Part shown: piece by piece, positions 18,023 to 18,922 of the stretch
Layout of the letters: the number at the start of each line of letters is the position of its first letter
Numbering within the stretch: position 1 is the stretch's first letter
Origin: Bacteroidales bacterium
Lineage (GTDB): Bacteria > Bacteroidota > Bacteroidia > Bacteroidales > UBA932
DNA length: 64,000 nt
NCBI GenBank assembly: GCA_024691765.1
Contig: JAILNI010000006.1
Location: 79,993 to 143,992, forward strand
Reading direction: 5' to 3'
Translations under genes and position numbers: made by a program
The notes under the pieces: generated by a model
The model's input: only the letters and a program-made list of their open reading frames with translations
Told to the model about the DNA's origin: nothing
The model's database searches: none

Positions 18023-18922
18023 CTAATACTCTATCCCGGTAAGGAACAGGGCGTGGCCGGAGACGGATTCGCCGGCAAGGCTGCGGCGGGGAATGCCATT
18101 CGCGGCGCCTTGGGCAATCCGGGAGTCTTGAGACGGGGGCAGAATCAGCCCGGCGAACTCATCCAGGCTGCGGCGGCCGCGGCCTACCTCCAGCAGCGTT
18201 CCCACGATGGCCCGTACCATATTCCGCAAGAACCTGTCGGCTGAAATGCGGAAGTACCAGTACTGCGGGGCCCTGGAGGCGGAACCCTCCGAAACCCTTG
18301 CCACCCTCGGCACGCTAAGAGGGGGGACCGCGTCAGCGGTGGGGTCAAGCGAAGCGAGACGATTTCGGAGGGTTGCTGCCTCCAGGGCTGGAGTATACGG
18401 CCGCCACTCCGCCTCAAACACCGTGCAGACACTGGTCCTGGCATCGGAACCCACTTTCTGGAAGCAGGAAAAATCGTGTGTGCCAGGCAGCATCGCTGCG
18501 GCCTTGTTCATGAGTTCGAAATCCACCTCCGGATAGCCGTAAAAGAAAGACCTCCCGGCCATAAACGGGTCTTTGCAGCGGTGAAGGTAATAGGTGTAGC
18601 TACGCTTCTTCGCATCGAATCTCGCGTGAAAATCAGGCGAAGCCGGCTCGACTGAAAGAACCGCCACTGCGGGCGGCAGGATGGCATTTAATTTGCAGGC
18701 AAGAAAGGATGCGTCGGGCTCTCCCGAAGCGTCGAAATGCGCCACGTAACCCACGGCACTCACTCCAGTGTCGGTACGTCCTGCGCCGGTAACGCTTACC
18801 GGCTCGCCCAGAAGGGTTTGGAGGGCGGTTTCGAGGGCTTCCTGGACGCTCGGCGCATCGGGCTGCCTCTGCCAGCCGCAGAAGGGGGCTCCGTCGTAGG
18901 AAAGAGTGATTTTGTAGCGCAT
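18023..18922 (-). CDS. truA: tRNA pseudouridine synthase A with internal insertion
   Basis: LSYDGAPFCGWQRQP, VTGAGRTDTGVSAVGYVAHFD, YWYFRISADRFLRNMVRAIVGTLLEVGRG; ~40 extra residues before YWYFRIS. Confidence 0.95.
   Translation of the reverse strand: MRYKITLSYDGAPFCGWQRQPDAPSVQEALETALQTLLGEPVSVTGAGRTDTGVSAVGYVAHFDASGEPDASFLACKLNAILPPAVAVLSVEPASPDFHARFDAKKRSYTYYLHRCKDPFMAGRSFFYGYPEVDFELMNKAAAMLPGTHDFSCFQKVGSDARTSVCTVFEAEWRPYTPALEAATLRNRLASLDPTADAVPPLSVPRVARVSEGSASRAPQYWYFRISADRFLRNMVRAIVGTLLEVGRGRRSLDEFAGLILPPSQDSRIAQGAANGIPRRSLAGESVSGHALFLTGIEY
18270..18389. repeat. 120-bp palindromic element inside truA
   Basis: Arms GCCCTGGAGGCGGAACCCTCCGAAA (18270-18294) and TTTCGGAGGGTTGCTGCCTCCAGGGCT (18363-18389) are near-perfect inverted repeats. 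Confidence 0.75.

Follow-up and report, generated by a model that had tools for sequence, protein, structure and literature searches.

A Palindromic Segment Within TruA

How a palindrome comes to lie, in frame, within the gene of a conserved tRNA-modifying enzyme is the question raised by this locus. In the window, i.e., the whole 64,000-nucleotide stretch of DNA analyzed, to which all coordinates refer, positions 18023–18922 of the minus strand are predicted to encode a 299-residue tRNA pseudouridine(38–40) synthase, TruA, as judged by a match to TIGR00071 above the cutoff of that profile (162 bits; cutoff 142.85), by a match to PF01416 and by an AlphaFold2 model that superposes on the TruA crystal structures 2nqp, 1dj0 and 1vs3 with a TM-score of up to 0.89. 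The palindromic element (18270–18389), comprising a core and both arms, falls in frame within this minus-strand reading. The left arm (18270–18294, plus strand) is complementary to the right arm (18363–18389, plus strand), which contains one extra base; when 18270–18294 and 18363–18388 were aligned, 24 of 26 columns paired, with one gap. The single-stranded fold of the element yielded a z of −6.4, with none of 200 shuffled sequences folding equally well. An earlier, sequence-only reading of the window had described a 120-bp palindrome with near-perfect arms of some 25 bp, which proved exact, and had stated that its length is a multiple of three and keeps the frame open; indeed, the element measures 120 bp and the truA ORF is continuous.

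At the protein level, the insert, including the deduced peptide LASLDPTADAVPPLSVPR, lies in the loop between ..EAEWRPYTP and YWYFRISADRF. This loop reads AFWMQYSPTLSPGSPLPGCNYWYF in G009 (locus L100), the closest relative found, which lacks the element, and AEWRPYTPALEAATLRN...SRAPQYWYF in the source genome, where it is some 30 residues longer than in G009 and some 40 longer than in the species of the genus with the shortest loop. The reported gain of about 40 residues thus holds relative to the latter, and the protein segment quoted was correct, but the gain relative to G009 is smaller, and because loop length varies across the genus, the edges of the putative insertion cannot be fixed to a single base. 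Both the length and the sequence of the loop vary widely in the genus, most of the other TruA proteins presenting a short or unrelated loop and close relatives short, unrelated ones. Alignment with relatives, as had been suggested, revealed no homologous segment common to related TruA proteins. In the AlphaFold2 model, the insert residues form low-confidence blocks (pLDDT 62, 56, 44, and 62) between the strands at residues 165–175 and 221–228, pointing to insertion in a turn; a structural model had been suggested earlier to see whether the insert is a surface loop.

In two more distant relatives, G005 and G069, copies of the same family, with unrelated arms, occupy the same TruA loop. In G054 (L098), a short GTCATTCCCGG-type repeat encoding VIPGLTGNP (GATTCCCGGTCAAGCCGGGAATGACGG) is present twice in tandem in this loop and looks like a CGTC-type REP. 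The TruA loop is thus a repeated landing place.

A Dispersed Repeat Family

When 131 bp spanning the element were used as a blastn query against the source metagenome-assembled genome (MAG), copies sharing 85–91% identity were detected in unrelated genes. A covariance model of the core identified at least eight copies in this MAG at E ≤ 0.01, namely, in truA, trmB, a SpoU-type methylase gene, truB, a partial second truB, rsgA, hutI, and lnt. The sequence-only reading had named a lack of other copies, or a homologous non-palindromic segment in all related TruA proteins, as refuting an insertion; neither condition held. All eight copies detected in the source genome lie inside genes. Intergenic copies also exist, such as L068 and L084, found between genes.

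In other genomes of the genus, the core model detected at least 36 copies in G042, at least 35 in G189, at least 31 in G097, at least 16 in G063 and at least 6 in G074; given that 150 candidates per genome were scored, these counts are lower bounds. DNA matches to the element were found in 56 of 101 genomes of the genus, and an order-wide search with the model gave matches in 4 of 295 genomes, these being the source genome, one from another genus of the family and two from other families. Named records containing the exact core were, among the matches listed, Bacteroidales MAGs, many from ruminants and one from a horse, with one labelled Prevotellaceae. All of the genomic data used here come from MAGs. 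A phage origin was considered and rejected, as the exact core pattern had no match in IMG/VR; likewise, assignment to a known RNA family was rejected, with the truA copy matching no Rfam covariance model at E ≤ 5.

As such, the truA segment is confirmed, as far as sequence comparison without translation data allows, to be an insertion, lying in frame in TruA, that belongs to a dispersed family of repeats. The same comparisons show that members of this family are insertions not shared by close relatives and that they sit in frame in many conserved genes, in both orientations.

Several individual loci merit description. A single trmB gene in G058 (L087) holds two copies at two different places. 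In rsmF of G146 (L357/L216), a second copy is nested within an older, degraded copy, still in frame. A recent burst of 105-nt copies is seen in G063 (L376–L390; G063 and G074). In sister species, the same purH and miaA loops are occupied by other structured, GC-rich repeats with no apparent relation to the element core (L201–L204, L161, L122, and L125).

A Conserved, Folded Core

Each copy contains a conserved core of about 70 nt, predicted to form three hairpins and closed by arms of 20–30 bp. As the arms do not align, RNAalifold was uninformative with full copies, and the fold was assessed from an alignment of 39 cores with a named structure. In the truA copy, hairpin 1 (18297–18315, plus strand) has the form NNNGCC-ACCCTC-GGCN(N)NN, with columns 4–22, 5–21, and 6–19 covarying across the 39 aligned copies. 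The CCCTC (18304–18308) of its plus-strand loop, ACCCTC, can pair with the GAGGG found after TAA (18319–18323), creating a putative pseudoknot (18304–18323, plus strand) that is near-invariant in the 39-core set and co-changes elsewhere, to CCCGC/GCGGG in a second source-genome subfamily (L392–L394) and to CCCCC/GGGGG in L387. Hairpin 2 (18327–18340, plus strand; ACCGC-GTCA-GCGGT) varies in length between copies. Hairpin 3 (18344–18360, plus strand; GTC..GC-GAA-GC..GAC) presents a GNA loop and, in most copies, two G-A mismatch pairs, replaced by standard pairs in some; its outer pairs covary (U-A/C-G, columns 69–84). Across the 39 aligned cores, 87.1% of cells were paired, as compared to 32–52% when the structure was slid along the alignment, while changes on both sides of core pairs numbered 77, as opposed to 25.5 in shuffles. 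The alignment thus shows the core to have a conserved predicted fold supported by covariation, with the pseudoknot supported by co-change.

Since the G-A mismatches of hairpin 3 would be T-C on the opposite strand, the plus strand is likely the folded one. GNA loops closed by GC are unusually stable in DNA, suggesting single-stranded DNA, rather than RNA, as the folded form. From these considerations, it is inferred that the relevant folded form is single-stranded DNA of the plus strand.

Arms Changing in Concert and Cores Inverted in Place

In 75 complete copies, duplexes formed by the left and right arms of the same copy had a median energy of −58.5 kcal/mol, as compared to −29.9 kcal/mol for arms taken from different copies. 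Copies L068, L084, and L086, from a single clade, have near-identical cores and unrelated arms, while some subfamilies do share arms, e.g., CCAGTCTGGATGGCGAGACC. Between the orthologous copies of G189 and G162 (L409 and L433), the core and inner arm are identical, the outer arm has changed from GCCGTCATGAGG to CGGCGAAGGTGG, and the partner arm has changed to match. In the assemblies compared, the arms are thus shown to differ between copies yet to stay complementary, changing in concert. Two copies, L380 and L382, contain hybrid, non-complementary arms, reflecting recombination or misassembly; such chimeric arms could be assembly errors.

The core of the rsmF copy is in the plus orientation in G212 and in the minus orientation in G162, G189, G042, G090, and G049, with matching arms. 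At miaA, the left arm in G162 is the reverse complement of the right arm in G042 and the core is reversed; at an intergenic site (L405 versus L422), the core is likewise inverted, together with the arms. Comparison of assembled orthologous sites shows, therefore, a core inverted in place between related species. In these genes, both core orientations are open in register, reading TATLGTLRGG.. and ASLRSAPPLA..VPPLTVPRVA. Neither the copy-specific arms nor the in-place inversion of the core had been noticed in the sequence-only reading.

Template switching between inverted repeats is reported to produce just these outcomes, arm homogenization and spacer inversion, in coding DNA (PMC8604942), and to create and maintain stems (PMC8794818). 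The mechanism proposed here is that DNA polymerase, switching templates at the inverted arms, would write and rewrite the arms and flip the core, acting after insertion.

Empty Sites and the Source of the Arms

Empty and filled sites were compared at truA, rsmF, miaA, purH, and an intergenic site, with the in-frame insertion being absent from orthologues of these genes. The empty rsmF loop is 10–13 residues long. Empty sites at rsmF, purH, L068, L083, L084, and L085 lack both arms, while at miaA, G090 contains one arm only and G146 contains both. In the cleanest pair, with 95% identical flanks, L406 (G189) reads CCTTTGGTGGCGACCAAGAG and L424 (G042) presents the same flanks plus the element, which sits in the loop of a small host palindrome, TTGGT-GGCG-ACCAA, with the loop copied inverted. 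This is the only nearly clean empty site at high identity, and deletion between the 4-bp TGGT repeats explains it equally well.

Inverted duplication of host flanks as the source of the arms would fit miaA in G090 and G146 but was rejected, given that neither arm is present at the empty rsmF and intergenic sites. Insertion into pre-existing long palindromes was also rejected, as no coding empty site has one, apart from possible scars (miaA in G033 and G090; L420). It is conceivable, although we would not count on it, that this is a class of mobile element whose folded core alone is inherited, the terminal inverted repeats being formed afresh from host DNA wherever it lands, either by template switching or by insertion at a small host palindrome. 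Such an element would construct its ends out of the target and could flip within a gene while leaving that gene intact.

Host Genes

A conservative codon-usage test was applied to 71 exact-core copies with enough context: 29 (about 40%) are intragenic, with coding sequence on either side, another 26 sit in an open frame whose flanks are unclear, and the remaining 16 lack an open frame. Host genes were named using Pfam and NCBIfam, giving 41 distinct genes, counted before the second source-genome subfamily was added. RNA-modification genes account for 11 of these, namely, truA, truB, trmB, two SpoU types, rsmF, miaA, an RluA-family synthase gene, rsmA, mtaB, and an Rlm-like methylase gene. The last (L231) is a weak assignment, below cutoff; for truB, L005 falls below and L392 above the cutoff. 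In the source genome, six of the eight copies are in genes for RNA modification or rRNA binding, the latter being rsgA. Against a background of 3%, an assumption drawn from general knowledge, 11 of 41 corresponds to a p of about 2e-8, a value that is indicative only, since inherited copies are not independent.

Origin of the TruA Insert

The explanation considered probable is that the segment belongs to a strand-folding DNA repeat, dispersed and non-autonomous, of rumen-type Bacteroidales, one copy of which entered a tolerant turn of TruA and was retained because its length and open frame spare the enzyme; neither translation nor activity data are available. Such repeats would spread as selfish elements, with intragenic copies surviving because the frame is open in either of the two states related by inversion and additional residues are tolerated in the host loops, as inferred from the comparisons above. 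No transposition event was observed and no mobilizing gene was found. This explanation leaves the strong preference for RNA-modification genes unexplained. That TruA merely has a variable loop containing a chance palindrome can be virtually dismissed: wide variation of that loop in the genus would allow it, but it is refuted by the 85–91% identical copies in unrelated genes of the same genome and by the fold z of −6.4.

Movement as a REP/REPIN-type element by a RAYT (Y1/HUH) transposase whose gene lies at another genomic site draws on the resemblance of the hairpin architecture to REP doublets and on the distribution of Y1_Tnp genes, present in 78 of the 101 genomes of the genus; 51 of these 78 contain the element, as do 5 of the 23 without Y1_Tnp (Fisher p = 2.8e-4). 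That association, however, is confounded by relatedness and completeness, and Y1_Tnp has no match in three genomes from beyond the genus that contain the element (G374, G426, and G456; 96–99% complete). Moreover, none of 10 RAYT loci examined (L220–L229) is flanked by an element copy, only L034 having a copy near a RAYT gene. Mobilization by RAYT, while a good fit within the genus, fails in the outlying genomes, is not supported and is deemed unlikely. The RAYT-like Y1 proteins of L220–L229 themselves, of about 300–370 residues, are common in the genus, with those of G000 and G009 being encoded upstream of the same neighboring gene. Inversion by a site-specific recombinase, which would make the core an inverton for protein phase variation, would account for in-place inversion at three sites and for both orientations being open in register, but copy-specific arms leave no common recombinase site in the arms, the inversions were seen between species and not within a population, and arm rewriting would still need explaining; little credence is given to this possibility. 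It is similarly hard to credit that the copies are domesticated regulatory structures, i.e., mRNA hairpins bound by RNA-modifying enzymes that control their own synthesis. While the excess of RNA-modification genes (11 of 41) and the conserved core fold speak for such a role, the transcribed strand is not constant, a single site being occupied in either orientation, no role in RNA modification is known for the other thirty host genes, many copies lie outside genes by the conservative test, and element-free orthologues are common. A selfish, strand-folding repeat remains the preferred explanation.

Comparison With Known Systems

Most descriptions of protein-coding palindromes concern Rickettsia, Wolbachia, and some Proteobacteria. 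Rickettsia palindromic elements (RPEs), of about 105–146 bp, are found both in intergenic regions and in frame in conserved genes, where they contribute segments to the encoded proteins (PMC2229807); RPE-1 is also present in truB of R. conorii (PMC3733652). RPEs and the protein-coding palindromic repeats of Wolbachia resemble the Bacteroidales element in size, palindromic nature, intergenic and in-frame intragenic copies, and contribution of protein segments. The parallel with RPEs drawn in the sequence-only reading thus stands with respect to the way of working, but the element is not a Rickettsia element, differing in core sequence, structure, and host range, albeit with no RPE sequence having been compared. 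Unlike RPEs, the Bacteroidales element, found in a different phylum, has copy-specific yet complementary arms, a core that inverts in place, and copies concentrated in RNA-modification genes. It also has a conserved, putatively pseudoknotted core, none being described in the accounts of RPEs cited here (PMC2229807; PMC3733652).

In Proteobacteria, structured intragenic REPs occur in truA, truB, polA, uvrA, and genes of other nucleic-acid enzymes (Di Nocera et al., 2013; PMC3733652). These GTAG/CGTC-tagged REPs share truA, truB, polA, and uvrA as hosts with the present element, yet are units of 20–40 bp that are conserved in sequence and bear a tetranucleotide tag, whereas here a conserved core is flanked by variable arms over about 120 bp. 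The recurrence of these four hosts across phyla points to a general rule as to which proteins accept such inserts. REPINs, too, comprise inverted repeats around a short center, folding as one hairpin, but their arms are conserved, whereas here the center is conserved and the arms are copy-specific; with RAYT linkage and conserved arms both tested and not met, the element is not classified as a REPIN. In template-switch palindromes (quasipalindrome correction), arm homogenization and spacer inversion in coding DNA are as seen here (PMC8604942), but the spacer is random host sequence, whereas here it is a repeated, conserved element.

The element thus appears to work like RPEs and intragenic REPs, with a core and predicted structure of its own that are absent from Rfam. 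As it is abundant in an uncultured gut lineage, whose many species allow one site to be compared in its empty, filled, inverted, and rewritten states, the entry and change of repeats in conserved genes become directly testable. Set beside the known systems, it represents a new case, and an unusually dynamic one, of the incorporation of parasitic DNA into proteins.
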